This document shows, one piece after another, positions 33,213-53,400 of a stretch of 64,000 bases of DNA. The notes beneath the pieces are model-generated. The model saw only the letters and a program-made list of their open reading frames with translations, searched no databases and was not told the origin of the DNA. Positions within the stretch are counted from its first letter, which is position 1, and every line of letters begins with the position of its first letter. Source of the stretch: Desulfoscipio sp. XC116 (GTDB taxonomy: Bacteria > Bacillota > Desulfotomaculia > Desulfotomaculales > Desulfallaceae). Location of the stretch: positions 248,001 to 312,000 of the forward strand of contig NZ_CP156660.1 in the NCBI RefSeq assembly GCF_039851975.1, in the 5' to 3' direction. The position numbers and the translations under genes were made by a program.

Positions 33213-33965
33213 GTGGACAGAAAAGAATTGCACGCACTTTTGGAGTCTTTAGTCGCCGGCAGTACCACCGTAAATCAGGCTATAAAGAAATTGGAATTCT
33301 TGCAGTATGAAGACATAGGCTATGCTCGCCTGGACCACCACCGAGAACTTCGCACCGGTTTTCCTGAGGTTGTATTTTGTCAGGGCAAGACCCCGGAGCA
33401 AGTGGGAGGTATTATTTCTAGATTGGCGGCGAATGGCAGACCGATTTTGGGTACACGGGCCTCTGCTGAAGCTTACGTAATGGTCCGGAAGACTCTCCCC
33501 GAGGCTGTGTATTATGATATGGCCCGCTGTATTGTAGTGCCGGCAGGGGAAGAGAGAGAAGAAAAGGGAGAGATCGTGATTGTCAGCGCGGGGACGGCGG
33601 ATATGCCGGTAGCGGAGGAGGCGGCAGTGTCCGCAGAAACTATGGGGTTAAGGGTAACAAGGCTCTATGATGTGGGTGTCGCCGGAATTCACAGGTTATT
33701 GCAGCATGTCGAAAAATTACAAAAAACAAATGTCGTGATAGCTGTGGCCGGCATGGAAGGGGCTTTGGCAAGCGTTGTCGGCGGGCTTACCAGTCGTCCT
33801 GTAATCGCTGTACCTACGAGTATCGGATATGGAACCAATTTTGGGGGACTTTCAGCGCTTCTTTCAATGCTGAACAGTTGTGCCTCAGGGGTGGGAGTAG
33901 TTAATATTGATAATGGCTTCGGAGCGGCAGCTTTGGCGCGGGCCATAGTCCAATCAGGGAGGTAG
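33213..33965 (+). CDS. larB: LarB, pyridinium-3,5-biscarboxylic acid synthase
   Basis: The 250-residue protein has a PurE/AIR-carboxylase-like C-terminal half (VIVSAGTADMPVAEEAAVSA, then VVIAVAGMEGALASVVGGL and PVIAVPTSIGYG) after the LarB N-terminal region (YARLDHHRELRTGFPEVVFC). LarB carboxylates and hydrolyses nicotinic acid adenine dinucleotide as the first step of nickel-pincer nucleotide synthesis. GTG 33213 follows GGAAGGAG. It lies between the LarC2 and LarC1 genes with tight spacing, so the three form one operon. LarE, the sulfur donor, is not in the window. Confidence 0.92.
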   Translation: MDRKELHALLESLVAGSTTVNQAIKKLEFLQYEDIGYARLDHHRELRTGFPEVVFCQGKTPEQVGGIISRLAANGRPILGTRASAEAYVMVRKTLPEAVYYDMARCIVVPAGEEREEKGEIVIVSAGTADMPVAEEAAVSAETMGLRVTRLYDVGVAGIHRLLQHVEKLQKTNVVIAVAGMEGALASVVGGLTSRPVIAVPTSIGYGTNFGGLSALLSMLNSCASGVGVVNIDNGFGAAALARAIVQSGR

Positions 33966-34836: not shown

Positions 34837-35024
34837 AAATATTGAGGATGAATACCCCAAGAAGTGTTTCACCGTGAACGTTTTACTGTTTGGGAGATTA
34901 TCTGTACGGAAAAAATCTCAAAGGAGGTGTAGAAAGAGGAAAATATTATCTTGAAAGGATAGATGCCTTCTAAACGGATGTAAAGGGTTCACTTTAATAA
35001 AAAATATATGGGAGGTAAATATTG

Positions 35025-37105: not shown

Positions 37106-37169
37106 AGTTCCCCATGCGAAAGAACTATCCGCGGAAAACCAAGTTTAAACAAGGGAAGGGGTGATTTGG

Positions 37170-38138
37170 TTGAGTCTTTGGGTGAAAGTGGGAGCCCGTT
37201 TGCACCTCGGTCAACTCGACCTTAACGGTTCCTTAGGGCGTTTATACGGAGGACTTGGTTTAGCTATTGATCAACCTTGCTTGGAGATTACTGCGGAGAA
37301 AAAAAATGATTTGGTTATTCTTGGCCCGGAAAAGGAGAAAAAAAGACTGCAGCGGCTGGTCCGTAAATATCTGGACTTTTATGGGCTTCCCGGAGTCAGG
37401 CTCGAACTGTTGGAATCTTTGCCGATGCACAGCGGGTTAGGCTCAGGAACTCAGCTTGCTTTGGCTGTAGGTTTTGCGATAACAAGAGTCTACGGATTAG
37501 CCCCGGCGGTAACGGAGTTAGCGGTCATAACGGACCGGGAAGGCAGCCGCTCCGGGATTGGCGTAGCGGCATTTGAACAAGGGGGCTTTTTTATCGATGG
37601 AGGTATGTGCACCAACATAATAAGACAAACAGGTCTTTTTGAAGTTCCGCCGATTCTTGCTCGAACGCCATTCCCCGAAGAATGGGCAATTATTCTGGCT
37701 TTACCTCACAAGGAAGAGGAGATGTTCGGTCAGGAAGAAGTAAAGGCCTTCGCTTCCTTGCCGCCGATGGCGGAAGAGATATCCGGGATGATCTGCCGGC
37801 TCTTGCTGATGAAACTGCTTCCCAGTCTGATGGAGAAAGATCTGGTGAGTTTCGGACAAGCTGTGACAGAGATTCAGAAACGAATTGGCAGCCATTTCAC
37901 ACCTGTTCAGGGAGGCATCTATGCTTCAAAAGCAGGAGCCGATGTTGCGGCGTATCTACTTAGGCAAGGTGCTGCCGGAGTTGGCCAAAGTTCCTGGGGA
38001 CCGACGATTTACGCTTTTACCAGTCGGGACAAAAAAACGGACTTATTGGAAAAGACCCGGAATTTTTTAGGGAAAAGAGGGCTAGTTTGGACAGCCTCAG
38101 GCAGGAATCAAGGAGTGAGCTGGGGGTGGAAGGAGTAA
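37170..38138 (+). CDS. Beta-ribofuranosylaminobenzene 5'-phosphate synthase
   Basis: This 322-residue GHMP-superfamily protein matches beta-RFAP synthase: N-terminal ARLHLGQLDLNGSLGR, the glycine-rich phosphate loop LPMHSGLGSGTQLALAVG near residue 95, GSRSGIGVAAFEQGGFF, and GVGQSSWGPTIYAF near the end. It joins 4-hydroxybenzoate-derived or 4-aminobenzoate units to PRPP with loss of CO2, the first committed step of H4MPT synthesis. I prefer TTG 37170 to GTG 37161 because AAGGGGTGA lies at the correct distance. It opens the C1/cofactor cluster. Confidence 0.88.
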   Translation: MSLWVKVGARLHLGQLDLNGSLGRLYGGLGLAIDQPCLEITAEKKNDLVILGPEKEKKRLQRLVRKYLDFYGLPGVRLELLESLPMHSGLGSGTQLALAVGFAITRVYGLAPAVTELAVITDREGSRSGIGVAAFEQGGFFIDGGMCTNIIRQTGLFEVPPILARTPFPEEWAIILALPHKEEEMFGQEEVKAFASLPPMAEEISGMICRLLLMKLLPSLMEKDLVSFGQAVTEIQKRIGSHFTPVQGGIYASKAGADVAAYLLRQGAAGVGQSSWGPTIYAFTSRDKKTDLLEKTRNFLGKRGLVWTASGRNQGVSWGWKE

Positions 38139-38142: not shown

Positions 38143-38697
38143 ATGACAGATCAGAACCTACACCCTAAAGTTGCTTGGGGAATTACAGGAGCGGGACATT
38201 ACCTGTCGGATTGTATTGAATTGCTGACTGGGCTGAAGTCGGCCGATATCTTTCTTTCGGATGCCGGGAAAGAAGTGTTGAATTACTACGGCTGGTATGA
38301 ACGATTAATAAGTTCCGGTCATTCTTTGATTCGGAAAACTGGAGCCAGTTGTTTACCCGTTACCCGACTGTACACGGGAAAATACGATCTGGTCATTATT
38401 GCCCCGGTTACTTCTAATACGATCGCCAAAATGGCCTGCGGTATAGCGGATAATCTTATCACTAACCTATTTGCGCATGCCGGCAAATGTCGGATTCCGA
38501 CGATCCTTTTACCTTGTGATTCCATGGCTGAAATGAAGTCCCTGACGCCGCAAGGCAAACAGGTTTTGATCCATACCAGAGAAATAGACCGGGAAAACAT
38601 TGTCCGGCTGTCTAATTGGCGTATGGTCACTCTGGTAGATGATCCTCAGCAGCTGAAGAATCTGATCACACGGTATGATGCGGAAAGACAGGGGTGA
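38143..38697 (+). CDS. Flavoprotein of H4MPT cluster (dihydromethanopterin reductase-like)
   Basis: A 184-residue protein of the flavin-dependent Cys-decarboxylase/archaeoflavoprotein fold, with GITGAGHYLSD at the N terminus, VIIAPVTSNTIAKMACGIAD in the middle and a Cys-containing PTILLPCDSMAEM segment. In H4MPT clusters such proteins are thought to reduce dihydromethanopterin to H4MPT (DmrB-like). It is 4 bases downstream of the beta-RFAP synthase gene and overlaps the start of the next frame, so they are cotranscribed. The exact reaction is inferred from context. Confidence 0.75.
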   Translation: MTDQNLHPKVAWGITGAGHYLSDCIELLTGLKSADIFLSDAGKEVLNYYGWYERLISSGHSLIRKTGASCLPVTRLYTGKYDLVIIAPVTSNTIAKMACGIADNLITNLFAHAGKCRIPTILLPCDSMAEMKSLTPQGKQVLIHTREIDRENIVRLSNWRMVTLVDDPQQLKNLITRYDAERQG

Positions 38698-38702
38698 TCC
38701 GT

Positions 38703-40106
38703 ATGGAAAAATATGTGTTCGTTACGGGGCAAATTGCTCATAAAGCTCTTCTCCAGGTAAGCGGGAAAATAAATTCGATTCAACCGGAAATCAAGTGCCT
38801 GCGCTGCACAGTGGCGGCACTTATGTCCACAAAGTTTATCGCCAGGGAACTGGCCCGCGAAGGAGGATTTAGCGGACAGGAAATTATCGTTATTCCGGGT
38901 CTGTGCCAGGGATCGCTGCAGCCGATTCGGGAAGCCACAGGCCGTAAAGTGCTCAGGGGTCCCAAGGATTTGATTGATTTGCCCGCCTTTTTTCAAAAAG
39001 GGCAGAGCAATGCTTCCGAAAACGCGATTGCTGATACTGTTTCGCCGATCCGGATCTTGGCGGAGATCGTCAATGCACCGCGGATGACGGAAAAGGAGAT
39101 TCTGGAAAAAGCGATTTACTATCGGAACAGCGGTGCGGATTTCATTGACCTCGGAGGGGATGTAGACCAGCCATTCCCACGCTTGCAGCGAGTTATTCAT
39201 ATGCTGAAAAGCGAAGGCTTTAAGGTAAGTGTCGACAGCCATCAAAAGGAAGATATTTTGGCCGCTAGTCAGGCCGGAGCCGACTTGATTTTAAGCCTTA
39301 CTTCAGAAAATCTGGAACTGGCCAAGGTTTTGAATTGTCCGGCCGTCATCATACCGGATGATGGGGAAAACCTGGATTCTCTGTATGGAAGCATGCAGAA
39401 ATTGGACCAATGGAAGATTCCCTATCTTGTCGATCCTATCCTTCCCCCTTTGACCATGGGGTTGGCTGAAGGGATCGGGCGTTATCTCAAGGTGCGCAAA
39501 GAATTTCCTGATTGTGAGATGCTGATGGGATTGGGAAATGTGACCGAGCTTACGGATGCGGACAGCACGGGCCTCAATGCCCTTCTGATTGGTATTGCCG
39601 GTGAACTGAGAGTTCACCATATCCTGACCACGGAAGTCAGCCACAGAGCACGGGGAGCCGTACGGGAAATCAGCTTGGCGCGCCGCTTGATTCATCAGGC
39701 TCTCAGCGAGCGGAGAGTGCCGAAATACATGGATGAAAGCTTGCTGACCATCAAAGACCCGGGCGGGAACTCCTTTAATAAAGCCCAGCTTTGGGAAATG
39801 CATCAGGTGATCCGGGACAGAAATTACCGTATTTTTGTGGATGATCAGATCTATGTGTTTAATGCTCATTGCTTTATTCAGGGGAGCACGGCTCAGGAGG
39901 TGTTTGCCAAGCTGGACATTCGCGATTCAAGCCATGCGTTTTACCTGGGAAAAGAGCTGGGCAAAGCGGAACTCGCTTTGCAGTTAGGCAAAAAGTATAC
40001 ACAGGATAATCCGCTGAACTGGGGTTATCTAAATGCGGAGAGCAGCAGGAATATTCAAAATGACGAAAATAACAAGAGCAATAGGGAAAAGAGGGTCTCC
40101 TTATGA
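38703..40106 (+). CDS. Dihydropteroate synthase-related protein
   Basis: The 467-residue protein has an N-terminal DUF6513-like domain (YVFVTGQIAHKALLQ) and a C-terminal TIM-barrel related to dihydropteroate synthase, with DFIDLGGDVDQPFPR and KVSVDSHQKEDILAA near residues 150-190. In methanogens and H4MPT-using bacteria this protein is linked to the coupling of the pterin with beta-RFA-P. ATG 38703 is preceded by AGGGGTGAT; the GTG at 38694 overlaps the previous stop and is less likely. Its stop overlaps the next start (ATGA). Confidence 0.85.
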   Translation: MEKYVFVTGQIAHKALLQVSGKINSIQPEIKCLRCTVAALMSTKFIARELAREGGFSGQEIIVIPGLCQGSLQPIREATGRKVLRGPKDLIDLPAFFQKGQSNASENAIADTVSPIRILAEIVNAPRMTEKEILEKAIYYRNSGADFIDLGGDVDQPFPRLQRVIHMLKSEGFKVSVDSHQKEDILAASQAGADLILSLTSENLELAKVLNCPAVIIPDDGENLDSLYGSMQKLDQWKIPYLVDPILPPLTMGLAEGIGRYLKVRKEFPDCEMLMGLGNVTELTDADSTGLNALLIGIAGELRVHHILTTEVSHRARGAVREISLARRLIHQALSERRVPKYMDESLLTIKDPGGNSFNKAQLWEMHQVIRDRNYRIFVDDQIYVFNAHCFIQGSTAQEVFAKLDIRDSSHAFYLGKELGKAELALQLGKKYTQDNPLNWGYLNAESSRNIQNDENNKSNREKRVSL

Positions 40107-40735
40107 TCATCGAAACGATCTTGTCTTCGCTCAACGAGGACGGCGAGGTGAATTTTGCACCAATCGGGGTTCATGTTTCCGATCATACCGAGTGGCTTTC
40201 AGAAGTGGAAGAAATAGAGATCTTCCTTTATTCCGGCTCAAAGACCTTCTCCAATCTCCGGGCCAGACCGGAGGGAGTGATCAATTTGACCGATGACCTA
40301 TTGAGCTTTGTCGATACGGCGCTTTACTCCGGGATTCTGCCGACACATCCCTCCGATCAGGTTCGACCGCCCCGCATGGCTGGAGCGAAGCTCATTTGGG
40401 AATTCGCGGTGACCTCTTTTGACGATTCCAGAGAGCCTGCCAAAGTGACCGGAAAGATCTTGCTTTTTAGAGAACTGAGCAGTTTTACCGGGCTTTGCCG
40501 GGCTCACGGGGCTATTCTCGAGGCGGCGATCACCGCCACTCGTCTGACCTGGATTCCAGCGAGCAAAGTAACTGATTCCTGGCCACTTTGGCAGCAAGTC
40601 GTGGAAAAGACCGGGGGCGGAAAAGAAAAAGAAGCCTTTGCGAAAATCACCGATTATTTTTGCCAACAGGGTATTAAGGTCAGGGGACACACCTCCTTTC
40701 TAAGGTCAGGGGATACACCTCCTCATTGGGAATAA
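40103..40735 (+). CDS. DUF447 family protein, repeat-extended C terminus
   Basis: A 210-residue protein of the DUF447 family (IIETILSSLNEDGEVNFAPI at the start, RPPRMAGAKLIWEFAV in the middle), which binds FMN in archaeal relatives and accompanies H4MPT genes in methylotrophs. Its role is unknown. The last 18 or so residues (from GHTSFLRSGD) are encoded by GGGGACA-type repeat units and do not look like the family, so the original stop appears to have been replaced by a repeat insertion. The start overlaps the previous gene by four bases. Confidence 0.8.
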   Translation: MIIETILSSLNEDGEVNFAPIGVHVSDHTEWLSEVEEIEIFLYSGSKTFSNLRARPEGVINLTDDLLSFVDTALYSGILPTHPSDQVRPPRMAGAKLIWEFAVTSFDDSREPAKVTGKILLFRELSSFTGLCRAHGAILEAAITATRLTWIPASKVTDSWPLWQQVVEKTGGGKEKEAFAKITDYFCQQGIKVRGHTSFLRSGDTPPHWE

Positions 40736-40803: not shown

Positions 40804-40827
40804 TAATTGAACGAGGAGGATTTACGA

Positions 40828-41691
40828 ATGAAAAAGATTTTGCTTCACTTGGAAGCGGATTCCCAAGCCAGTGTTTTCGACCAAATCACCGCTTATGACG
40901 CCGGGGCCGATCAGGTGCTGGCATACGGGGGAGTGCGCTTGGAGGAAGTGACCAATCTTGTCTATGGCGCCATGTTTACCAGGGGGGGAGAAGGATTACG
41001 CAATACGGCCATCTTCATCGGCGGTACCCATGTTCCGACTGCCGAGGCACTTCTGAAAAAAGTACGGGAAACTTTTTTTGGCGATGTCCGGGTTTCCGTG
41101 ATGTTCGATGCCAACGGATCCAACACAACGGCAGCAGCCCTGGTTCATAAAATTGCTTATGGCCGGAACCTTAAGGGGAAAAAGGCTCTGATTCTTGCCG
41201 GTACCGGCCCGGTTGGCATCCGGGCCGCAATCCTTCTGGCCAAGGAAGGCTGTGAGGTTTATCTTTCTTCCCGGCAATTGGAGCGGGCCCGGGAAGTCGG
41301 AAAACATATTCTGAAGAACAACGGGGTGGAGATTATCCCGCTTGAGATCGGGGAAGCGAAAGATGTTTCAGCGGTACTGAAGCGGGGAATTAACATTGTG
41401 GCTTGTTGTGGGGCCCCCGCTGTGCAAATGTTGGATTTAGCGAGCTGGTCCACCGCAACCGGCCTGGAAATCATTGCGGATATCAACGCCGTCAATCCGC
41501 TGGGAGCGGAAGGGATTAAGGTGACGGACGATGGCAGGGAAAGGGAAGGGAAGATTATCTACGGCGCTATTGCTATCGGCAATCTAAAGATGAAGGTGCA
41601 TCGAGCCGCCGTTCGGACTTTATTTGAAAGTAACCGGCATGTCCTGGATTTCGACTCGATATATGAGATCGCCAAGAAGATGGAGGCTTAA
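40828..41691 (+). CDS. mtdB: Methylene-H4MPT dehydrogenase, NAD(P)-dependent
   Basis: ATG 40828 follows GAGGAGG at 40813-40819; the product is 287 residues. The N-terminal half (LLHLEADSQASVFDQITAYD) and the Rossmann motif GTGPVGIRAAILLA near residue 125 match the MtdA/MtdB family, and the VMFDANGSNTTAAA and AVNPLGAEGI segments are typical. It interconverts methylene-H4MPT and methenyl-H4MPT with NAD or NADP, the entry step of the pathway that continues with Mch, Ftr and Fwd encoded downstream. Cofactor preference cannot be decided from the sequence alone. Confidence 0.9.
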   Translation: MKKILLHLEADSQASVFDQITAYDAGADQVLAYGGVRLEEVTNLVYGAMFTRGGEGLRNTAIFIGGTHVPTAEALLKKVRETFFGDVRVSVMFDANGSNTTAAALVHKIAYGRNLKGKKALILAGTGPVGIRAAILLAKEGCEVYLSSRQLERAREVGKHILKNNGVEIIPLEIGEAKDVSAVLKRGINIVACCGAPAVQMLDLASWSTATGLEIIADINAVNPLGAEGIKVTDDGREREGKIIYGAIAIGNLKMKVHRAAVRTLFESNRHVLDFDSIYEIAKKMEA

Positions 41692-41692: not shown

Positions 41693-42895
41693 TTGATTCT
41701 GGTGGTTGGGGCAAGCGTAAGAGCACTAATGGAATCCGCGGCGGAATCAGGAAAAGCTGTGATCGGGCTCGACTTTTTTGGAGATGTGGATGCCAATTGG
41801 CAAGGAAAAGCGATGAGCCTGACCGGTGACTATGGTTTGCAGCCAACTGTGCTCAACTTGCTGGAAACTGCCAGAAGTATTTCATGTGAGGCATTGGTCT
41901 ACGCTTCGGGTCCGGAGAACACCCCGGAGGGACTGGCGTATTGGGAGAACCCGGGGCGACTTCGGGGCAACAGTGTATCGGCGCTGATGAGGGTGCGCAA
42001 TCCCTGGGAACTCAGAACAAGTCTGGGGAAGATCGGAGCACGGATGCCACCGTTCTTTTCCCTTGAAGAGTGGACTTGGCTTCCGGGCAAAAAGATCTGG
42101 CTGTTAAAGCCGTTGAATAGAGGCGGTGGGTATGGAATTCAGGTGTTGCCCCAAAATAAGGAAGCGGCTGAAGTGCTGCTTTCCGGCTTGAAGCAACCGG
42201 CCCATTTCAGGATCGAAGAATATAAAACCGGAATTCCGGGGTCAATTACGTTCCTGGCCAACGGCTATAGGGCAGTGGTCTTGGACAGCAGCCGCCAGCT
42301 TTCCGGGGAAGGAAGCTGTCACAGGACATTTCGTTATCAAGGCAATATCGTTCCATTGGATCTTTCAGGAATTATCCCTTTAGATTATTTTGAGGATCAA
42401 ATTGCGCAGGCAGTCCAACAGCTTACGGAAAGCTTTGCCTTGAGAGGAGTCAATACCCTGGATTTTATCGTCAGCGAGGAGGGAATCTGGTTTTTGGAAC
42501 TGAATCCCCGCTGGTCCGCCTCTGTGGAACTGATTGAGAAGTCTCGGGGCCGGCGTTTTTTCGCCTGGCATCTGGCTGCTTGTGAAGGAGCGGATTTAAC
42601 AGCGTTCAGGGAATCCCTGGAATTAAAGACGTTGGGATTAAAGCGTTCCGCCCGGCCCCAAATTTTTTGGGGCAAACGCATTGTTTATGCTCGGACTCCC
42701 GGTATTATCGGCAGATACGACGATAAATCGCTGCGCTTTTTATACCGGCAGGGGGTGCGTGACATTCCCCGGGAAGGGACAAGGCTTGAGAAGGGACAAC
42801 CTATTTGTACGGTGCTGGCGGAAGGCAGCTCCGACCAGGAGTGTGATCTGAAATTGCGGGCCAAGGCCATATGGATTGGGCAATATTTTGGATAG
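41693..42895 (+). CDS. ATP-grasp protein of H4MPT/methanofuran cluster
   Basis: A 400-residue protein starting at TTG 41693, six bases after GGAGG. The N-terminal Rossmann-like part (ILVVGASVRALMESA) is followed by an ATP-grasp fold with the Mg-binding end NTLDFIVSEEGIWFLELNPR near residue 265, and a C-terminal domain of about 80 residues. ATP-grasp enzymes join a carboxylate to an amine or thiol through an acylphosphate. Homologues are found in H4MPT gene clusters of methylotrophs, where the step is not settled. Candidate roles are a late ligation in H4MPT or methanofuran synthesis. Confidence 0.75.
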   Translation: MILVVGASVRALMESAAESGKAVIGLDFFGDVDANWQGKAMSLTGDYGLQPTVLNLLETARSISCEALVYASGPENTPEGLAYWENPGRLRGNSVSALMRVRNPWELRTSLGKIGARMPPFFSLEEWTWLPGKKIWLLKPLNRGGGYGIQVLPQNKEAAEVLLSGLKQPAHFRIEEYKTGIPGSITFLANGYRAVVLDSSRQLSGEGSCHRTFRYQGNIVPLDLSGIIPLDYFEDQIAQAVQQLTESFALRGVNTLDFIVSEEGIWFLELNPRWSASVELIEKSRGRRFFAWHLAACEGADLTAFRESLELKTLGLKRSARPQIFWGKRIVYARTPGIIGRYDDKSLRFLYRQGVRDIPREGTRLEKGQPICTVLAEGSSDQECDLKLRAKAIWIGQYFG

Positions 42896-42952
42896 ACGAG
42901 CGATGTTCATTCGTTAAGATCGGAAAAGTGCATGGATGAAGGAGGGAGGCCA

Positions 42953-43315
42953 ATGGGCAGCATTTCTGGATTATTGATTACGGTTCGTACCAGTCGACAA
43001 GGGGCGGCGATGGAAAAAGGTAAATTTTGTGATGAGTATATACGAGAAATATCCACTCTGGCTGTAAGTCCTGAAGACTTTGCGCTGCTTCATTTAGAGC
43101 AGGGCAATAAGGCTTTGCTGAAAAGCGCAGCCGGAGAGATCACGGTAACCTGTCGCCCTAAAGAAGGACCGCAAGGGCTTTTCTTTCTTCCTTTGGGACC
43201 TCTGGCTAACCGGCTGATAAGTGGAGAGACCTATGGTACAGGAGTTCCTGATTTTAAAGGGATTTCCGTAGTGCTCTCATCTCTGAAGCCGGATGGGCGG
43301 AAATTAGATGAATAA
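42953..43315 (+). CDS. fwdD: Formylmethanofuran dehydrogenase subunit D
   Basis: The 120-residue protein starts at ATG 42953 behind GGAGGGAGG. It matches the molybdopterin-dinucleotide-binding FwdD/FmdD subunit: TVRTSRQGAAMEKGKFCDEY at the start, LFFLPLGPLANRL in the middle and GTGVPDFKGI near the end. In methanogens this subunit completes the Mo/W-bis-pterin site together with FwdB. The hydrolytic Fhc complex of methylotrophs has no separate FwdD, so its presence here supports a redox-active enzyme. The assignment rests on motif agreement in a short protein. Confidence 0.8.
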   Translation: MGSISGLLITVRTSRQGAAMEKGKFCDEYIREISTLAVSPEDFALLHLEQGNKALLKSAAGEITVTCRPKEGPQGLFFLPLGPLANRLISGETYGTGVPDFKGISVVLSSLKPDGRKLDE

Positions 43316-43397: not shown

Positions 43398-44711
43398 ATG
43401 GCGCTGACTGTTCATGAAGATGTCGTTTGTACGTTTTGCGGCTGTCTTTGTGATGATCTTAAAGTGGAGGTCGCGGATAATCAGATTGCCAAGGTTAGCA
43501 ATGCCTGTGCAATAGGCCGGAACAAGCTGATGCACGCGCAAACGGATTTGGCCTCGTTTCGGGTAAATGGCAGGGAGGCCACCTGGGAAGAGGTGATCTC
43601 TGAAGCGACTAATATTCTAAACCGAGCCAAGGCTCCACTGGTTTATGGCTTAAGCAGTACGACAACTGAGGCCGTCAGAGAAGCAGTAGCCTTAACGGAG
43701 AAGATCAAAGGGACGATTGATAACCCAGCGTCATATTGACACGGGCCGGGCGTTCTCGCCCGCCAGCAAGTTGGGCTGGCTTCATGTACCTTAGGGGAAG
43801 TAAAAAACAGAGCCGATCTTTTGATTTATTGGGGCGCCAATCCCGTGGAATCCCATATGCGTCATTTAAGCCGATATTCTGCTCTGGCTAAGGGACTTTA
43901 TGTTCCGGAAGGGCGCAAAGGGAGGAAGGTCGTAGTCATTGATATCAGGCCGACCCCAACAGCGAAGAATGCAGACCTCTTTATTCAAGTCACTCCGGGT
44001 CAGACTTTTGAAATCGCCCATGTTTTGCGTTGCCTGGTCAAGGGCATTCGTTTGGAAGGGTTGACGGAGACTAGTCTGGTCGGCGGCGTTCCTTTATCCC
44101 AATGGCGCGAATTGGCGGAAATGATGAAACAATGTCGTTATGGAGTGCTCATGTTCGGCATTGGAGTGACGCAAAGCCGGGGTAGAGAGCTGAATATTGA
44201 AGAAATCAATACGTTGGTCAATGAAATGAACCGCTATACCCGTTTTTATGCCATTGCTATGCGGGGGCACGGCAACGTGAACGGGAGTAACCATGTTTTG
44301 GCGTGGCAGACCGGCTATCCTCTGGCGGTAAACTTTTATCGTGGTTACCCTCGTTATAGTCCGGGCGAATTCAGTGTCGTGGATATGCTGATGCGTCAAG
44401 ATGTGGATGCAGCTCTGATTGTAGCCACGGACCCGGGTGCTCATTTGCCGGAGCAAGCTGTCCGGTATCTGAAGAGCATCCCGACCATTGTGCTTGAGCC
44501 GCACGAAAGCTTAACCACGACCTGGGCTAATGTAGTCATCCCTGTCGCTCCGGCCGGAGTGGGTGTCGAAGGGACGTTCTACCGAATGGATAATGTTGCC
44601 CTTCGTTTAAAAAAATTGGTTGATTTCCCATATCCCTCCGATTTGGAAGTTCTGCGGGAGCTAAAGGAGAGAGTAAGTTATGTTGAAAATTGTGAACGGT
44701 CGGATTTATGA
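43398..44711 (+). CDS. fwdB: Formylmethanofuran dehydrogenase subunit B, selenoprotein
   Basis: A single frame from ATG 43398 to the stop at 44709-44711 is interrupted only by TGA 43737-43739 (codon 114). Around it the product reads NPASY-U-HGPGVLARQQ, which aligns with the FwdB site where Cys or Sec binds Mo or W. The rest of the chain continues without frame change (GEVKNRADLLIYWGANPVE). N-terminal CTFCGCLC plus NACAIG supply the four [4Fe-4S] cysteines. The 437-residue length is normal. It reduces CO2 to formate or the reverse, which FwdA joins to or removes from methanofuran. The gene overlaps fwdA by 32 bases. Confidence 0.9.
43737..43739 (+). other. In-frame TGA, probable selenocysteine codon
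   Basis: TGA occurs at codon 114 of fwdB with open frame of high similarity to the family on both sides. Methanogen FwdB proteins of some species (Methanopyrus, Methanocaldococcus) have Sec at this metal-binding position, and others have Cys. Confidence 0.85.
43740..43785 (+). promoter_or_regulatory. Candidate bacterial SECIS element
   Basis: Directly after the TGA two perfect six-base stems can form: CGGGCG-UUCU-CGCCCG (43747-43762) and GCCAGC-AAGUUGG-GCUGGC (43762-43780). The loop of the second begins 28 bases after the TGA, within the distance known for bacterial SECIS hairpins; an alternative fold GCCC/GGGC (43758-43776) puts a G first in the loop. The stems share base 43762 and exclude one another in part. 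Confidence 0.65.
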
Positions 44712-46320
44712 TCCTATTAATGGGGTAAAAGGAGAAGTCCGGGATATCTATGTCGAGAACGGCAAAATCACAGAATACTTGCCTGACAAGGAGATTAGTC
44801 AGATCATTGATGCCTCAGGCTGTGCGGTTATGCCGGGGGGAATTGAGATCCACAGCCATATTGCCGGAGCTAAGGTTAACAGTGCCCGTATCATGTGTCC
44901 GGAAGATCATTACGATCATTTCAAATTAAGCACTGTCGGGACACGTTCCGGGACAGGCTATACCGTTCCCAGCACCTTTCTGACAGGGTACGCTTATTCC
45001 GCGCTTGGCTATACCACAGCTTTTGAAGCTGCGGTCCCGGCCCTCGAGGCTCGGCATGCTCATGAAGAGTTGGAAGATATCCCAATGCTGGATTCGGGGA
45101 TCTATACTCTGATGGCCAATGACCATTTGATTATGAAGGTCTTAAGCCGGAAGGACAAGTGCGGAAGCAAAGAGCAGTTGCGGGATCTGGTAAGCTGGTT
45201 TTTAACCAGCAGCAAAGGATATGCGGTCAAAGCGGTCAATCCCGGGGGAGTGGAAAGCTGGAAATGGAGCCGGGGAGCTGTGGACTTGGATACGCCTGTA
45301 CCTCCATTTGGCATCACGCCCAGAAAGCTGCTTCTTAGCTTGGTGGAGGCAATCCGGGAATTGAAACTTCCGCATGGTCTTCATCTTCATGCCAATCATC
45401 TGGGCGAAGCAGGGAACTTTAAGACAACTTTGGAAACGATGCGTACCCTTGAAGGGTACCCTGTGCATTTTACGCACCTCCAATTTCATTCCTATGGTAT
45501 AACCGGCAAAGGAGCAATGCAATCGGCGGCTAGGGAGATTGCCGAATACTTGAATGCGCATCCTGAGTTCACCTGTGATGTAGGACAGATTGTTTTTGGG
45601 CCGGTGACCACCATGACTGCGGATTCTCCCATGCAATTCCGACTGCATGAGATGACCGGGAACAAGTGGAGCAATGCCGATATCGAGATGGAAACCGGAT
45701 CGGGAATTGTTCCTATGCTCTATAAGCCAACGGTGCTTTTTAATGCGATTCAGTGGTGTATTGGTCTGGAATTGCTTCTGCTCATTAAAAACCCTTGGCA
45801 GATTATCTTGACGACCGACCATCCCAATGCCGGGCCGTTTACCTCTTATCCCCACATTATTCGGCTGCTGATGGATGCGGATTTTCGGAATTCCGTCCTG
45901 GAGCGGCTTCATCCCAAGACGGGTGCTTTTACCTATCTTAAGGAATTAAAGAGAGAGTATTCTTTGGAGGAAATCTGCATTGTGACCCGTTCCGCCCCGG
46001 CCAAGGCTTTAGGTTTGTCTCAAAAAGGGCATTTGGGCAGCGGAACGCAGGCTGATGTGGCAATTTATCGGCTGCAGGATGATAAAGAGAAAATGTTTGC
46101 CAAACCGGCTTACGTTTTTAAGAATGGTAAGGTTGTCGTTCGGGACGGAGAAGTGCTCCAAAGCATCAGTGGAAAAAGGCTGATTGTCGAACCGGACGGT
46201 GCGAGAAAGCTGTCTCCCGATTTGGCCCGGGATTTTGCCAATTACTATTCTATTGCTTTAAGTAATTTTGCAGTTCAGGATGAGTATCTGGCACAGCCGG
46301 AGGTGATACCATGCATTTAA
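44680..46320 (+). CDS. fwdA: Formylmethanofuran dehydrogenase subunit A
   Basis: The 546-residue amidohydrolase-superfamily protein has the dinuclear metal HxH in GGIEIHSHIAGAKVN near residue 60, further His in LHLHANHLGE and THLQFHSYG, and the catalytic Asp region ILTTDHPNAGPF near residue 380. FwdA condenses formate with methanofuran, or hydrolyses formylmethanofuran in the reverse direction. It begins within the end of fwdB behind AGGAGAG and ends inside the start of ftr (10-base overlap). All visible metal ligands are in place. Confidence 0.93.
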   Translation: MLKIVNGRIYDPINGVKGEVRDIYVENGKITEYLPDKEISQIIDASGCAVMPGGIEIHSHIAGAKVNSARIMCPEDHYDHFKLSTVGTRSGTGYTVPSTFLTGYAYSALGYTTAFEAAVPALEARHAHEELEDIPMLDSGIYTLMANDHLIMKVLSRKDKCGSKEQLRDLVSWFLTSSKGYAVKAVNPGGVESWKWSRGAVDLDTPVPPFGITPRKLLLSLVEAIRELKLPHGLHLHANHLGEAGNFKTTLETMRTLEGYPVHFTHLQFHSYGITGKGAMQSAAREIAEYLNAHPEFTCDVGQIVFGPVTTMTADSPMQFRLHEMTGNKWSNADIEMETGSGIVPMLYKPTVLFNAIQWCIGLELLLLIKNPWQIILTTDHPNAGPFTSYPHIIRLLMDADFRNSVLERLHPKTGAFTYLKELKREYSLEEICIVTRSAPAKALGLSQKGHLGSGTQADVAIYRLQDDKEKMFAKPAYVFKNGKVVVRDGEVLQSISGKRLIVEPDGARKLSPDLARDFANYYSIALSNFAVQDEYLAQPEVIPCI

Positions 46321-47240
46321 ACGGAGTAGAAATTGAAGATACGTTTGCCGAAGCCTTTACCATGCGGGCTGCTCGGCTGACAGTTACGGCCATCAATGAG
46401 CAATGGGCGCGGCATGCTGCCTCGGCCGCGACCGGTTTTGCAACCTCGGTAATCGGCTGCGGGGTGGAAGCAGGTATTGAAGGAACTTCCGCACTTACTC
46501 CTGATGGCAGAGCAGGGGTAGATTGTCTTTTCTTTGCCTCTTCCAAGGACGAATTGGAAGCGAATCTGATCAAACGCGTGGGGCAGGCCATCATGACCTC
46601 CCCTACCTCTGCTTGTTATGATGGAGGATTAACGGAACTTCCGGCCAATTTTGATGGATTCAGCAAATTTAATATAGGTGGCAAGCTGCGCTTCTTCGGG
46701 GACGGTTATCAAGCCAGCAAAATAATCGGAAACAAGCGATACTGGCGGATTCCGGTGATGGAAGGTGAGTTTCTGATTGAAGAAGAATTTACCATGGCTA
46801 AGGCGGTCGGGGGAGGCAATTTCTTGATTTTGGCGGACAGTATTGAGTCGGCCCTGAAGGCCTCTGAGGTTGCGGTCCGCAAGATGCAGGAAATCCGGGG
46901 AATAATTCTGCCTTTCCCCGGTGGCGTGGTGCGCAGCGGCAGTCAGGTCGGATCAAAATATAAGTTCCTGTCGGCTTCCACGAATACTGCTTACTGCCCC
47001 ACTATTCGAGGCAGAGTGGAAGCAAGCGCACTTCAGGACGGTATCAATGCCGTCCTGGAAATTGTTATTGATGGGCTCACAGATCGCTTGGTCGGTCAGG
47101 CAATGGCCGACGGAATTCGAGAAGCTGTGCAGGTTCCCGGAGTCCGGCGCATCTCAGCCGGCAACTATGGCGGACGCTTAGGAAAGTACCACTTCCACTT
47201 GCAGCAGCTTTTAAGTCTGTCGGGGGGGGAGCAGGGATGA
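46311..47240 (+). CDS. ftr: Formylmethanofuran:H4MPT formyltransferase
   Basis: A 309-residue protein with the Ftr/FhcD pattern: MHLNGVEIEDTFAEAFTMRA at the start, ATGFATSVIGCGVEAGIE, and ARKIIGN-like GYQASKIIGNKRYWRIPVMEG in the first half. It moves the formyl group between methanofuran and N5 of H4MPT. GGAGGTGAT precedes the ATG that overlaps the fwdA stop. Methylotroph clusters place the same gene between the A and C subunits (FhcA, D, C), so the order here is the same. Confidence 0.95.
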   Translation: MHLNGVEIEDTFAEAFTMRAARLTVTAINEQWARHAASAATGFATSVIGCGVEAGIEGTSALTPDGRAGVDCLFFASSKDELEANLIKRVGQAIMTSPTSACYDGGLTELPANFDGFSKFNIGGKLRFFGDGYQASKIIGNKRYWRIPVMEGEFLIEEEFTMAKAVGGGNFLILADSIESALKASEVAVRKMQEIRGIILPFPGGVVRSGSQVGSKYKFLSASTNTAYCPTIRGRVEASALQDGINAVLEIVIDGLTDRLVGQAMADGIREAVQVPGVRRISAGNYGGRLGKYHFHLQQLLSLSGGEQG

Positions 47241-48094
47241 GTAGCCGGATCACATTGAGACTAAAAGAAGAGTCTTCACTCCCGGTGGAGGCGGAAAGCA
47301 TCAACCCGGAGAATCTATGTGGAAAAACTTTGGAGGAAATCCGGCGGCTGCCGCTTTGGAGCGGTAACCGCAGCTATCGGCTTGAGAATTTTTTTGAAGT
47401 AGAGAGCAGCGAGTCGGTAAGAGAAGCGGGCGCTTTGCAACGGGAGGATAAGCCTCTAAAGGTCATTCTGCGGGGTGATTTGTCACGCTTTAAACGGTTA
47501 GGGCAGGGCATGAGCGCAGGAGAGATGGAGATCCAGGGTTCCGTGGGGTTCCATGCCGGGGCGGAAATGCGCGGAGGTATTCTCCGTATAAAAGGTGATG
47601 CAGGGGATTGGCTTGGTGCGCATATGGAGGGCGGCCAGATTCTGGTGGAAGGCTCGGCCGGGCATTTCACGGGTGCCGCTTATCGGGGAAAAACCCAGGG
47701 AATGAGGGGCGGAAGTATCCTGATTCGGGGAAATGCCGGGCAGATGGCCGGTTCCAGGATGAGACGGGGACTGCTGGCCATCGGCGGAGACTGTGGAGAT
47801 GCACCGGGCTTTAAGATGCAGGCCGGAACGCTACTCGTTGCCGGCAATTCCGGCACTCTGGCAGGGAGCAATATGCTCAGAGGAACTATTATCTTTCTGC
47901 GGCCCGTCAGGCTGTTGCCGACTTTCTATTATAATTGCTGCTATCGCCCCATCTTCTGGGGGTTATTGGTTCAGGAACTGCGTAACAACGGCTTTGATCT
48001 ATCTGAGTCGGCAAACGAGGCATTTTTCCGGCGTTTCAGCGGGGATGCCAATGAGGGCGGTAAGGGGGAAATTCTTTTATGCCAATCCAATTAG
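47237..48094 (+). CDS. fwdC: Formylmethanofuran dehydrogenase subunit C
   Basis: The 285-residue protein carries the glycine-rich beta-helix repeats of FwdC/FhcC (also seen in the GltS alpha-subunit end), for instance GEMEIQGSVGFHAGAEMRGG, ILRIKGDAGDWLGAHMEGG and ILVEGSAGHFTGAAYRG, about seven turns in residues 80-220. It is a structural subunit that binds FwdA and FwdB. Its start overlaps ftr and its end overlaps mch by 16 bases. Confidence 0.93.
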   Translation: MSSRITLRLKEESSLPVEAESINPENLCGKTLEEIRRLPLWSGNRSYRLENFFEVESSESVREAGALQREDKPLKVILRGDLSRFKRLGQGMSAGEMEIQGSVGFHAGAEMRGGILRIKGDAGDWLGAHMEGGQILVEGSAGHFTGAAYRGKTQGMRGGSILIRGNAGQMAGSRMRRGLLAIGGDCGDAPGFKMQAGTLLVAGNSGTLAGSNMLRGTIIFLRPVRLLPTFYYNCCYRPIFWGLLVQELRNNGFDLSESANEAFFRRFSGDANEGGKGEILLCQSN

Positions 48095-49053
48095 CAGATG
48101 TTGGGCAGTTAAGTCCCAATCGTCAGGCTTTTCCATTCGTCAGGCAACTGCTGGAGCATTCGAAACAATTGAAGGTAGGGATTCAAAAAATCGGTCAGTC
48201 TACAGTGATCGACTGCGGGGTCGATGTACCGGGAAGCTGGCAGGCGGGTGTTCTGTTTGCTAAAATTTGTCTGGGCGGTTTGGCGGAAGTGACGCTGAAT
48301 TGGTCTGATTTCGATGGATTGCGCTGGCCGACAGTTGAGGTGGTCACCGACCACCCGGTTCGGGCTTGTATGGCATCCCAGTATGCGGGGTGGTTTATCA
48401 AAAAAAACAAGTATTCGGCCATGGGCTCAGGACCGGCTCGTGCTGTCGTCCAGGCAGAAGAACTATTTGAAAAACTGGGGTATAAGGATTCGGGAGATTT
48501 GGCAATTCTCTGCCTGGAAGGGAGCAAGCTTCCGACGGAAGAAGCCGTGAGCTGGATCGTGGAAAAGTGTCGATGTCCTGCTGAAAATATCTATATTCTT
48601 ATCGCCCCCACGGCATCTACCGTAGGTTCGGTACAGATTGCGGCGCGCTCTGTGGAGACCGGACTGCATAAGCTGATGGAGCTGGGCTATGACATAGGGC
48701 TGATTGAGAGCGGTTGGGGCATGGCGCCTGTCCCACCGGTGGCTGAAAATGATCTCAAGGCTTTGGGGCGAACCAATGACGCCATTCTTTATGGGACGAC
48801 GGTTTATTATACGTTGGATGACGAAGATGAGCGAATTGAGTCCCTAATCGGTGAGGTTCCTTCCTCCAGTTCCCGTGACTATGGAGTGCTCTTTCAGGAA
48901 TTATTCGAGCGTTACGGTAATTTCTATGATATTGACCCTTTGCTGTTCAGTCCGGCGCAAGTTTGGCTGAGCAATAAGCGCAGCGGGCGTTCTTTTCAGG
49001 CTGGGGAGATCCGCCTTGATCTCCTGCGCCAATCCTTTAAGCTTAAAGGATGA
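48079..49053 (+). CDS. mch: Methenyl-H4MPT cyclohydrolase
   Basis: The 324-residue protein matches Mch through DCGVDVPGSWQAGVLFAKIC near residue 45, MGSGPARAVV near residue 117, and AENDLKALGRTNDAILYG near residue 230. It interconverts methenyl-H4MPT and 5-formyl-H4MPT, linking MtdB to Ftr. The gene lies inside the fwdC-mch overlap, so the two proteins are translationally coupled. Length and motifs are normal for the family. Confidence 0.95.
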   Translation: MPIQLADVGQLSPNRQAFPFVRQLLEHSKQLKVGIQKIGQSTVIDCGVDVPGSWQAGVLFAKICLGGLAEVTLNWSDFDGLRWPTVEVVTDHPVRACMASQYAGWFIKKNKYSAMGSGPARAVVQAEELFEKLGYKDSGDLAILCLEGSKLPTEEAVSWIVEKCRCPAENIYILIAPTASTVGSVQIAARSVETGLHKLMELGYDIGLIESGWGMAPVPPVAENDLKALGRTNDAILYGTTVYYTLDDEDERIESLIGEVPSSSSRDYGVLFQELFERYGNFYDIDPLLFSPAQVWLSNKRSGRSFQAGEIRLDLLRQSFKLKG

Positions 49054-49062: not shown

Positions 49063-49974
49063 ATGAAAAAGAAGATGCATTGCCGTAAGAAGCGCATTGG
49101 AATTCTGGGTGTGGCTAAAGGACCCCAGGTTCAAATTATGTCCGAGGTATTGAAAAAGTTGGGAACTGAGGTCATTTTAATCGATCCTAAAAGACTGACC
49201 TCTTTTTTGCCTCAGAGTTGTACGCTTTACACGGAAAACGATGCTTCCGTATTGCAGCTTGAGGAACTGGATGCTTTGCTGGTGCGCTCACTGCCGGGCG
49301 GATCCCTGGAACAGGTAATTTACCGGGTCAATGTCCTGCATCGTTTGGAAATGCTCGGTTTAAAAGTTATCAACAGTGCTTCGCTGATCGAAAAAACGGT
49401 AGACAAGTTTTTTACCTCAGCCATTTTGGCTGCCGCAGGGTTGCCGGTTCCCAGAACCATTGTTACAGAACGCTTTGACCAGGCGATAGAAGCGGTGGGA
49501 GAGTTGGGGTCGGTTGTTGTCAAGCCGGTTTTTGGTTCCTTAGGGAAAGGCATTGTCCTGGTTGAAGACCTGGATATTGCCCATCGAGTCTTTCGGGCCT
49601 TGGAAATGGGACGCTATATATATTATTTGCAGGAGTTTCTGCCTAACGGCAATGAGGATCTGCGGATTTTTGTGATCGGCGGAAAAGTGGTCGGGGCAAT
49701 GCGGCGCCGCGGCTCAGGTTGGAAAACCAACATTGCCTGCGGGTCGAGAGCAGAAGTTTATCAGCCTGAAAAGGAAATAGCCCGGATGGCGGTTCAGACG
49801 GCCAAGCTCCTGAAAGCGGATTATTTGGGAGTCGATATTCTTATCAGCAATGACACGCCCTATGTCATTGAAGCCAATGGGATACCGGGTTGGACCGGGT
49901 TGCAGTCCGTCTCCGAAACAGACATCGCAGCCGCTCTGGCGGAGTACACTCTTGAGGAGATCAAAAAGCACTAA
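49063..49974 (+). CDS. RimK-type ATP-grasp ligase (H4MPT cluster)
   Basis: A 303-residue ATP-grasp protein with the RimK arrangement: N-terminal KKRIGILGVAKGPQVQIMSE, the nucleotide-binding VVVKPVFGSLGKGIVLVED segment near residue 150, and the Mg site GVDILISNDTPYVIEANGIP near residue 265. RimK relatives such as MptN and CofF add glutamate to H4MPT or F420. A glutamyl ligase acting on the pterin or on methanofuran is likely; the exact substrate is not visible. Confidence 0.8.
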   Translation: MKKKMHCRKKRIGILGVAKGPQVQIMSEVLKKLGTEVILIDPKRLTSFLPQSCTLYTENDASVLQLEELDALLVRSLPGGSLEQVIYRVNVLHRLEMLGLKVINSASLIEKTVDKFFTSAILAAAGLPVPRTIVTERFDQAIEAVGELGSVVVKPVFGSLGKGIVLVEDLDIAHRVFRALEMGRYIYYLQEFLPNGNEDLRIFVIGGKVVGAMRRRGSGWKTNIACGSRAEVYQPEKEIARMAVQTAKLLKADYLGVDILISNDTPYVIEANGIPGWTGLQSVSETDIAAALAEYTLEEIKKH

Positions 49975-49990: not shown

Positions 49991-50935
49991 ATGGGATATA
50001 ACTGGAAAATCGCCTTAATGGCTCAAACAGCTTGTTTTTTGGAAGTGGATGCTCCTAAAGTCGGGAACGTCAACCGTTTCCATGATTTTGAGGACGCTTC
50101 TTTGGAAGACTTTCATCTCAGTGCCCTGGCGATTGGGCGTCCTTTCGGTTACCTAGAACAGCAAGGGGTAGGGAAAACGATTGCCGCAGCGTTAAAAGCC
50201 ACCCGTGAAGTTGTGGCGACCAACACCAATCTGGGAATCATTTTATTGCTTGCACCGCTGGGCATGGCCTGGTGCCGCGGAGTATCCGAAAATGTTTTTT
50301 CTTCTGGGAATCAAGAGCAATCCTTTGTCCATGCTTTACAGCGGGAAATAAAAGATGTGCTGAAAGGACTTTCAGCGGAGGACACCTATTACGTTTATCA
50401 GGCTATTCGTCTGGCCTCTCCCAAGGGGATCGGGGAGGTGCGGCAATATGATGTCTTGCGGGAAGACATTCCTCAGATTCCCTTGCTTGAAGCTATGAGG
50501 CCGGCAGCAGACCGGGATTTGATTGCCCGGCAATACAGTAATGATTTTGCGCTGGTTCTCGGTGCTGGATATGAAGCCCTGAGTTGGGTCTTGGAGAAAG
50601 GGTTGGTCTTACCTCAAGCGATTGCTCATACTCACCTGATTTTATTAAGCATGGAGCAGGATTCTCTGATCAAACGCAAGCTGGGAGAGAATTGGAGCAA
50701 AGAAGTACAAAAACGGGCGCTCTTTGTGCGGGAACAAGGAGGCTGGCTTACTCAGAAAGGCCGGAAAGAAGTTCAGAAGTTTGACCTCTGGCTAAGGCAA
50801 GAAGGACATGGGCTCAATCCCGGAACGACTGCGGACCTGATGGCGGCGATTATTTTTGTGCATTTGCTGGAAAAGGATTTGAAAATGAAAGGGGTTGGTA
50901 GCAGCGACTACAGCTTTGATGATCAGCGTTTTTGA
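49991..50935 (+). CDS. CitG-like (triphosphoribosyl-dephospho-CoA synthase family) protein
   Basis: The 314-residue protein starts at ATG 49991 behind GAGGTAAAG. EVDAPKVGNVNRFHDFEDAS and GVGKTIAAALKATREVVATNTNLGI are the hallmark segments of the CitG/MdcB family, which condenses ATP with dephospho-CoA. In H4MPT gene clusters of methylotrophs a CitG-like gene is regularly present without citrate lyase and its role there is unknown; a ribosyl or phosphoribosyl transfer in cofactor synthesis is a reasonable guess. It overlaps the start of mfnB. Confidence 0.82.
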   Translation: MGYNWKIALMAQTACFLEVDAPKVGNVNRFHDFEDASLEDFHLSALAIGRPFGYLEQQGVGKTIAAALKATREVVATNTNLGIILLLAPLGMAWCRGVSENVFSSGNQEQSFVHALQREIKDVLKGLSAEDTYYVYQAIRLASPKGIGEVRQYDVLREDIPQIPLLEAMRPAADRDLIARQYSNDFALVLGAGYEALSWVLEKGLVLPQAIAHTHLILLSMEQDSLIKRKLGENWSKEVQKRALFVREQGGWLTQKGRKEVQKFDLWLRQEGHGLNPGTTADLMAAIIFVHLLEKDLKMKGVGSSDYSFDDQRF

Positions 50936-51701
50936 AGGAAAAGAAATCACTGCTGCGCTGGATGGCGGCGCCGACATTATTGATGTCAAGAACCCTGCGG
51001 AAGGACCCTTGGGAGCGCCATCACCTGAAGCCATTAGTGATGTTTGCAACCGGCTCAAGGGAAATAAGCCTTTCAGTATTGCCTTGGGAGAATTTCCAAA
51101 CAAACCGAATGCTGCGGCGCTAGCTGCCTTGGGCGGAGCACATTTCCTGCCGGATTTTATTAAAGTTGCGTTTGTCTCGCACACTGTGTCTGAAGAAATT
51201 TTCGAGACATTGCGTGCGATCAAGAAAAGTCTGCGCTTTTTCCGGCAAAAGAAAATCGCCCTGGTATCCGTAGCCTATGCCGATACGCTGGGGTCCGCTT
51301 CCTGGAATCTCAGCGACTTTGCAACGGTTTCCAAAGCGGGGGGAGCGGATGGCTGTCTTGTGGATACATCGCAGAAGAATGGTAAATCCTTACCGGATTA
51401 TTTATCCCGGAACAATATTGAACGATTTATTGCTGACTGTCGCAAAGAACAGCTTTTTTGCGGATTGGCCGGGTCCCTGCGCATTGACAATGTGACTGAC
51501 TTATGCAGATTGGAACCGGATATTATTGGTGTCCGTTCAGCGGTCTGTGGGGGAGATCGCCTGCGGGGTACGGTATCCGCGCAAAGTGTTCGGGAGCTTA
51601 GAGCTGCGCTTGGGCCCAGCGGCTTCCGGGGGGCAGAAAGACTCCGCGGGTCTGGCCGGTTTCCAGAAGAACGCGCAGCCTTTCCGGATCTGAACCGTTG
51701 A
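50919..51701 (+). CDS. mfnB: (5-Formylfuran-3-yl)methyl phosphate synthase
   Basis: A TIM-barrel protein of the MfnB (DUF556) family: GGADIIDVKNPAEGPLGA at the start, DFIKVAFVSH and a DTSQKNGKSL segment with the lysines of the Schiff-base site, and DIIGVRSAVCGG near the end. It condenses two glyceraldehyde-3-phosphate molecules into the furan of methanofuran. ATG 50919 is chosen by family length; TTG 50895 is an alternative. The last 30 residues (after RAALGPSG) do not look like the family and overlap the opposite-strand mfnE gene by 104 bases, so the ancestral stop was probably lost. Confidence 0.88.
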   Translation: MISVFEGKEITAALDGGADIIDVKNPAEGPLGAPSPEAISDVCNRLKGNKPFSIALGEFPNKPNAAALAALGGAHFLPDFIKVAFVSHTVSEEIFETLRAIKKSLRFFRQKKIALVSVAYADTLGSASWNLSDFATVSKAGGADGCLVDTSQKNGKSLPDYLSRNNIERFIADCRKEQLFCGLAGSLRIDNVTDLCRLEPDIIGVRSAVCGGDRLRGTVSAQSVRELRAALGPSGFRGAERLRGSGRFPEERAAFPDLNR

Positions 51702-52251
51702 GAAACCAGGCCGGCATGGCAAGGGGAAGGAGTTGACGGAAAAAAAGATCAACGTCCGGCTCTTGAAGCGTTGGCTCAATATCCTTGCTTTTAACCAGAA
51801 CGAGCATAGAACAGTTCAACCGCCTAGCTAAATAAGCGGCAATGGAATCCGAAGTGGTATTCCAGGAGCGGGCTAGATCGCTTGCGGGTACCTGTCCAAG
51901 GCAGTGAGAGCATATCAGGATTTGGGAGCCGGCGGAGATGCCCCGAACAGCTGGCCGGGAATATCTTGCAGCGGGCAGGACGGTCACTTTGCTTCCGGGA
52001 ATCCGTTCCTGAAGAATGAACGCATATTGATCCATAGCACCTAAGGCCATAAAATGGCAGGTTTCTTCACTAAGGTCCAGTTGTTTTCCGTATTCACGGA
52101 CCAGGTCGGCAAAAGGACCTCCTCCGGGGACGATTAGAACAGGATGTCTTTGCCCATAGCGGGAGATGATATTTCCCAATTGCCGCAGCACTTCGCCGCT
52201 TTCCTGTTGAATCAGGCTGCCGCCAAGTTTTATCAGGATGGGTCTGGGCAT
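51598..52251 (-). CDS. mfnE: MfnE-like amino acid kinase family protein
   Basis: A 217-residue kinase of the aspartokinase/UMP-kinase fold: PILIKLGGSLI at the start, VLIVPGGGPFADLVREYG, and the nucleotide-binding WNTTSDSIAAYLA near residue 140. MfnE phosphorylates 5-(aminomethyl)-3-furanmethanol phosphate to the diphosphate used by MfnF. It is the only gene on the minus strand in the 18-kb cluster. ATG at the complement of 52249-52251 is preferred to the GTG 12 bases upstream because AAGGAG would be too close to the latter. Its 3' end overlaps mfnB. Confidence 0.82.
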   Translation of the reverse strand: MPRPILIKLGGSLIQQESGEVLRQLGNIISRYGQRHPVLIVPGGGPFADLVREYGKQLDLSEETCHFMALGAMDQYAFILQERIPGSKVTVLPAARYSRPAVRGISAGSQILICSHCLGQVPASDLARSWNTTSDSIAAYLARRLNCSMLVLVKSKDIEPTLQEPDVDLFFRQLLPLAMPAWFLNGSDPERLRVLLETGQTRGVFLPPGSRWAQAQL

Positions 52252-52351
52252 AACGTGAACCACTCCTTTTGAAAGTCCAATAAAGTGAAAACTCTATGGA
52301 GTTATAGCCTTATTATATATCAAAGTTATTTCCCAAAGGGGGGGGTGTCCG

Positions 52352-53380: not shown

Positions 53381-53400
53381 TTTTTGCTGCGAGGAGTGGA

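Follow-up and report, generated by a model that had tools for sequence, protein, structure and literature searches.

Evidence for a selenocysteine-containing formylmethanofuran dehydrogenase subunit in Desulfoscipio sp. XC116 and a Firmicutes-centred lineage

Introduction

Can a gene for formylmethanofuran dehydrogenase subunit B (FwdB) that carries an in-frame TGA still encode a single protein, with selenocysteine (Sec) at the interrupted codon? This question is raised by a locus of Desulfoscipio sp. XC116, which lies in a window of 64,000 nucleotides, the whole stretch of DNA analysed here; coordinates are those of the window unless a locus handle (L-number) is given. Proof of Sec-FwdB exists for Methanopyrus kandleri (Vorholt et al. 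1997, as cited in PMC13188914), and a 2026 review lists the Sec-FwdB family for bacteria and archaea, with methanogenic archaea mentioned in its text (PMC13188914). A planctomycete Sec-FmdB was predicted in 2016 from Rhodopirellula P2 and a Lake Washington fosmid (PMC4807772). The novelty that the initial annotation implied for a bacterial Sec-FwdB was too high, as these two sources already contain it, for planctomycetes and for both domains, respectively. Furthermore, 149 bacterial FwdB homologues have been counted, and annotation programs are described as truncating the Sec forms (PMC10100899). The literature we searched yielded no report of Sec-FwdB in Firmicutes, which is not proof of absence.

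Results

A single FwdB reading frame with one internal TGA

43398..44711, + strand: fwdB, formylmethanofuran dehydrogenase subunit B, 437 residues with predicted Sec at 114 (frame translation, TIGR03129, 5T5I alignment)
43737..43739, + strand: single internal in-frame TGA of fwdB, codon 114, predicted to be read as Sec (aligns with W-ligand Cys118 of Methanothermobacter wolfei FwdB, 5T5I)

With the internal TGA translated as U, the fwdB frame consists of 438 codons, extending from the ATG at 43398 to the terminal TGA at 44709-44711. A ribosome-site-like GGGGGGAG is located upstream of the ATG, and the residues HGPGVLARQ follow directly after the internal TGA with the frame unchanged. The product matches the FwdB model TIGR03129 at 525.9 bits (curated cut-off, 327.8 bits), with residues 8-426 covering model positions 1-421 of 421. 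The N-terminal [4Fe-4S] cluster cysteines C11, C14, C18 and C37 are kept in all 95 FwdB homologues (95/95), and His115, next to codon 114, is present in 94/95. The gene thus combines a full-length TIGR03129 match, four cluster cysteines and the ligand codon with fwdA, fwdC and fwdD nearby. The genome has no second FwdB beside the gene at 43398-44711, and therefore no Cys isoenzyme that could serve as a substitute.

Standard translation table 11 divides fwdB into two ORFs of 113 and 296 residues, the very split by gene callers that the initial annotation had anticipated. Its description of one FwdB frame with a single TGA is correct in every checkable detail, the retained cluster cysteines included. 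The second ORF, with its start at TTG 43821, could be taken to mean that the ribosome stops at the TGA and then starts anew, so that an Fe-S part of 113 residues and the pterin-binding part become separate polypeptides. However, TTG 43821 lacks an upstream ribosome site, and 22 of the 27 residues in codons 115-141, between the TGA and this TTG, are invariant among nine Sec homologues. Codons 130-141 are conserved as protein (10/12 residues) while their synonymous sites vary, and a restart at the TTG would lose the conserved UHGP motif. We therefore reject such a split gene as highly improbable, on the missing ribosome site and the conservation of codons 115-141, and retain the single frame.

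The TGA occupies the metal-ligand codon and is shared by relatives

In a phmmer alignment, residue 114 pairs with residue 118 of 5T5I chain B. This M. wolfei FwdB is a full-length homologue with the cluster cysteines, and has Cys118, named as its catalytic cysteine (PMC7325909), where the window protein has the predicted Sec 114. The alignment agrees with the earlier assignment of the TGA to the metal-ligand position. The ligand codon encodes Cys in 84/95 FwdB homologues. Among the best 80 homologues across 84,980 species genomes, TGA is found in a Peptococcaceae MAG, Candidatus Formimonas warabiya, Gracilibacter BRH_c7a, Desulfosporosinus lacus, a MAG labelled Solidesulfovibrio and an Actinomycetota MAG; the remaining codons are TGC or TGT, except for AGA in Desulfosporosinus SbF1. 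Surveying 399 genomes from the phylum of the window yielded two more TGA genes, both in one additional genus. TGA at codon 114 is thus present in nine distinct genomes, the window's and eight others. Because the identical codon recurs in eight further genomes, this sharing is, judged from the sequences, far beyond chance. For Ca. Formimonas warabiya, the literature searched leaves methanofuran and H4MPT unmentioned.

An in-gene TGA is formally a nonsense codon, and a decaying FwdB pseudogene would carry one as a true mutation. Yet the TGA is common to all nine genomes, and these genes contain no other stop ahead of the 3' end (the second stops of L041, L048 and L135 fall within codons 427-433). 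Constraint is equally strong on both sides of the TGA, with Ka/Ks versus the nearest relative of 0.06 after and 0.09 before the codon region. The low downstream value argues that the 3' part of fwdB is translated and functional, and the surrounding cluster is intact and conserved. The relatives, in which the frame 3' of the TGA had been named as the point to check, thus keep it open and conserved, pointing away from a pseudogene. Given the shared TGA and the purifying selection after it, we reject nonsense mutation as exceedingly unlikely and take fwdB to be an intact gene.

In the Desulfosporosinus SbF1 MAG, AGA (Arg) replaces the Sec codon (L044, 597-599) and the hairpin sequence described below is intact; this AGA may be a recent loss or a sequence error.

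The genome encodes a complete selenocysteine machinery

The search for selA, selB, selC and selD proposed in the initial annotation returned a complete set. selA and selB lie next to each other on contig 1 of the window genome, and a tRNA-Sec with anticodon UCA is located about 14 kb from them. An IS1634-family transposase (L133, 9501-11279) lies between the tRNA-Sec and selAB. Two different selD genes (L128, L129) each have an in-frame TGA in the canonical motif (GUAAK and GUACK), and by this sequence feature both products are selenoproteins themselves. Relatives with the TGA also carry selA, except one 2.4 Mb MAG. Among the FwdB-bearing relatives, selA presence fails to distinguish Sec from Cys carriers, since most of the latter are selA-positive as well.

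A candidate SECIS element follows the TGA

43740..43784, + strand: candidate SECIS region, codons 115-129 (among the highest synonymous conservation of the gene in Sec homologues, not in Cys homologues)
43748..43761, + strand: hairpin 1, GGGCG-UUCU-CGCCC (RNA folding)
43762..43780, + strand: hairpin 2, GCCAGC-AAGUUGG-GCUGGC, likely the SECIS upper stem-loop (folding, invariant GU)

Two adjacent hairpins fold just downstream of the TGA, an arrangement that the window shares with most of the Sec set. The nine Sec genes share an invariant GU, located at 43770-43771 in the window and 30 nt past the UGA. Their synonymous identity reaches 0.79 in codons 115-129 versus 0.40 elsewhere in the gene; the higher value is attained in 0/20000 draws of random 15-codon sets. 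Over the same codons, two sets of Cys homologues give 0.37 (average 0.38) and 0.45 (average 0.40). A second conserved synonymous stretch near codon 422, just before and at the fwdA start, is probably explained by the overlap with that start.

The fold beats nearly all synonymous recodings in seven of the nine Sec genes (fraction 0.001-0.033), not in L045 and L048. Dinucleotide shuffling of the window hairpin alone gives a weak result (z -1.11), and more weight is given here to the synonymous comparison across species. The published bacterial SECIS model specifies a stem of 4-16 bp, a loop of 3-9 nt located 16-37 nt from the UGA, a G at loop position 1 or 2 and an MFE of at most -7.5. Hairpin 2 of the window has a 6 bp stem, a 7 nt loop starting 28 nt from the UGA and an MFE within this limit; its loop, AAGUUGG, would fit the G rule provided that two A.G mismatches stack, and not otherwise. 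The corresponding positions are paired in L042 and L043, where the stem reaches 8 bp with a GUU loop, in agreement with the published model. The candidate SECIS signal after the TGA is supported by synonymous conservation and folding and not by covariation, which was sought and is uninformative, as the base pairs hardly vary. The hairpin-2 sequence persists in L046 (Cys) and L044 (Arg), as expected following Sec loss.

The Arg codon of L044, in a gene otherwise intact, would also suit a UGA at which a near-cognate tRNA inserts Trp, Cys or Arg, yielding a non-seleno FwdB. Against such readthrough stand the complete Sec machinery of the genome, the Cys in nearly all homologues, which is the usual Sec/Cys exchange, and the downstream constraint that is missing in Cys genes. 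We consider it very unlikely, and decoding as Sec the preferred reading.

fwdB belongs to a conserved methanofuran and H4MPT gene cluster

37161..38138, + strand: beta-RFAP synthase, H4MPT biosynthesis (TIGR00144, 206.1 bits)
38143..40735, + strand: three H4MPT-linked genes, flavoprotein (AfpA/DmrX type), DHPS-like and DUF447 (profile matches)
40807..41691, + strand: mtdB-like methylene-H4MPT dehydrogenase (PF09176, 107.2 bits)
41702..42895, + strand: ATP-grasp protein (PF02655; synteny)
42932..43315, + strand: fwdD, dinucleotide-binding subunit (NF042908, 62.3 bits, E 4.8e-17, under the curated cut-off of 175; position conserved in relatives)
44680..46320, + strand: fwdA, amidohydrolase subunit, overlapping the fwdB end (TIGR03121, 720.4 bits; matches 5T5I_A and 8RJA_A)
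46311..47240, + strand: ftr, formylmethanofuran:H4MPT formyltransferase (TIGR03119, 392.9 bits)
47237..48094, + strand: fwdC (TIGR03122, 267.6 bits)
48079..49053, + strand: mch, methenyl-H4MPT cyclohydrolase (TIGR03120, 377.4 bits)
49063..49974, + strand: MptN-like H4MPT:glutamate ligase (NF040720, 235.1 bits, under the cut-off of 350; rimK_fam above cut-off)
50895-51701, + strand: MfnB, methanofuran biosynthesis (profile match)
51598-52263, - strand: MfnE-like, methanofuran biosynthesis (profile match)
52352-53380, + strand: MfnD-like, methanofuran biosynthesis (profile match)
53401-54471, + strand: MfnF-like, methanofuran biosynthesis (profile match)

The cluster runs from beta-RFAP synthase through the flavoprotein, DHPS-like, DUF447, mtdB and ATP-grasp genes to fwdD, fwdB, fwdA, ftr, fwdC, mch, the MptN-like gene and the methanofuran genes (50895..54471), most of which score under the archaeal equivalog cut-offs. 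Four other Bacillota have the identical gene order over the extent of the compared DNA. The FwdF and FwdG electron subunits that stand alongside a methanogen-type Fwd holoenzyme are not found among the cluster genes; as fwdEFG are likewise absent from other bacterial Fwd clusters (PMC7325909), the membership of the protein in FwdB is unaffected. The genome also encodes formyl-H4F synthetase and acetyl-CoA synthase. Because these accompany the H4MPT cluster, the organism seems, from gene content, to combine a folate branch with a second branch based on methanofuran/H4MPT. Neither Fae, looked for in the genome as a formaldehyde route, nor MtrH was found there.

Several further features were noted in the window and the genome. 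A Mo/W cofactor riboswitch (RF01055, 63.6 bits, 62701-62822, + strand) fits an organism dependent on Mo/W enzymes. LarC is seemingly split and rearranged, with a C-terminal PF01969 half at 32666-33178, a larB-like AIR carboxylase at 33213-33965 and an N-terminal half at 33973-34836. A 594-residue ORF (35022-36806, + strand) without a Pfam or NCBIfam match lies immediately upstream of the H4MPT cluster. Two acetyl-CoA synthase (CdhC) genes (L149, L150) have equal scores at distant genome positions, which suggests a recent duplication.

Comparison with known Fwd systems

The methanogen Sec-FwdB and the window protein have in common the subunit, the UHxP motif and Sec as the W/Mo ligand, predicted for the window. 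Archaeal SECIS elements are mostly found in the 3' UTR (PMC13188914), whereas the window candidate is intragenic and directly follows the UGA, in bacterial style. The 5T5I enzyme also contains FwdF and FwdG, unlike the window cluster. The Fhc complex of aerobic methylotrophs (6S6Y) resembles the window in its D-B-A-ftr-C order and its H4MPT pathway. FhcB, however, is without a metal cofactor (PMC10100899), while the window FwdB retains its ligand codon and all four cluster cysteines; an Fhc-type hydrolase scaffold is rejected on these grounds. In phmmer, the window FwdB scores 53 bits versus 6S6Y and 385 bits versus 5T5I. The Hakuba Actinobacteria have a Cys FwdB encoded in fwdDBA-ftr-fwdC without fwdEFG (PMC7325909), an arrangement like that of the window; the window genome contains H4MPT biosynthesis genes, in contrast to the Hakuba genomes.

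A further parallel is the planctomycete Sec-FmdB: it is bacterial, has the fmdD-B-A-C order, carries UGA at the same codon and is followed by a hairpin with GU in the loop. Nevertheless, it is 45-47% identical to the window FwdB, with well-supported Cys branches between them. Its hairpin, GCCGCCC-AGUU-GGGCGGC, sits in a codon frame different from that of the Firmicutes-centred clade, with the loop GU four bases closer to the UGA than in the window.

Two bacterial Sec clades among Cys-bearing groups

In both trees, which were built without archaeal Sec-FwdB sequences, the nine Sec genes fall into one clade (100/99), which also includes two Cys genes and one Arg gene. This Firmicutes-centred clade is nested in Cys-bearing groups and its nearest outgroup is Cys; within it, the simplest reading of the sequences is one Sec gain followed by losses. 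Nine planctomycete Sec genes group apart from these (100/100), and the closest relatives of this second clade carry Cys. The window FwdB and the planctomycete Sec-FmdB do not group as one clade, and the starred branches impose at least five Sec-label changes. Since Cys lineages intervene and the SECIS-like hairpins occupy different codon frames, the two Sec forms probably arose separately; less likely is one ancient origin of Sec that was followed by many losses. Some planctomycete FwdB (L169, L171-L175) have Gly or Ser at the ligand position and make up a clade that is largely their own; Gly at this position was noted in 2016 (PMC4807772).

Discussion

The locus unites a single frame, a TGA at a defined codon position, the Sec machinery in the genome, conservation among relatives and an operon. 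With TGA at the ligand codon in nine genomes, Cys there in most homologues and the machinery complete, the sequences support the reading as Sec put forward in the initial annotation. From them we infer recoding of the UGA in the cell, and with it the selenium content, metal and catalysis of the enzyme. The internal TGA is almost certainly read through, which would place selenium on the active-site metal. We are highly confident that fwdB encodes a Sec-containing FwdB, its UGA 114 presumably decoded via SelB and a stem-loop, in a predicted formylmethanofuran dehydrogenase with FwdD, FwdA and FwdC.

We postulate that SelB and Sec-tRNA(Sec) decode UGA 114 as Sec, insertion being directed by the stem-loop just downstream in the coding sequence. 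Selenium would replace the Cys sulfur as protein ligand of the W/Mo-bisPGD, adjoining the N-terminal [4Fe-4S] cluster. FwdB, FwdD, FwdA and FwdC would together interconvert CO2 and formylmethanofuran, with FwdBD acting on CO2/formate and the formate passing to FwdA, and Ftr, Mch and MtdB would connect this enzyme to H4MPT. As MtrH-type methyl transfer from H4MPT was not found, we mildly prefer a net direction of formylmethanofuran oxidation to CO2, at little better than even chances.

The bacterial FwdB tree bears on the proposal that the family started out with Sec as its metal ligand (PMC7331816). Because the bacterial Sec forms sit within Cys-bearing groups, the tree suggests later Cys to Sec gains in bacterial FwdB. 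As a whole, we regard the following scenario as reasonably likely: Sec was gained independently from Cys at least twice, in Planctomycetes and in the Firmicutes-centred clade. On both occasions a SECIS would have arisen anew within the coding region, and some members would later have exchanged Sec for Cys or Arg. Anaerobic Firmicutes that possess acetyl-CoA synthase and formyl-H4F synthetase would then run a second, selenium-dependent, archaeal-type methanofuran/H4MPT C1 branch without Fae.

As far as could be found, the new element is a Firmicutes-centred Sec-FwdB lineage separate from the planctomycete one. The named strain Desulfosporosinus lacus DSM 15449 carries a TGA fwdB, which makes the claim directly testable. 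The interest lies mainly in a second bacterial Sec-FwdB lineage and in a hidden selenium dependence: where gene callers cut fwdB in two, the predicted dependence of the methanofuran branch on selenium in anaerobic Firmicutes is concealed in the annotation.
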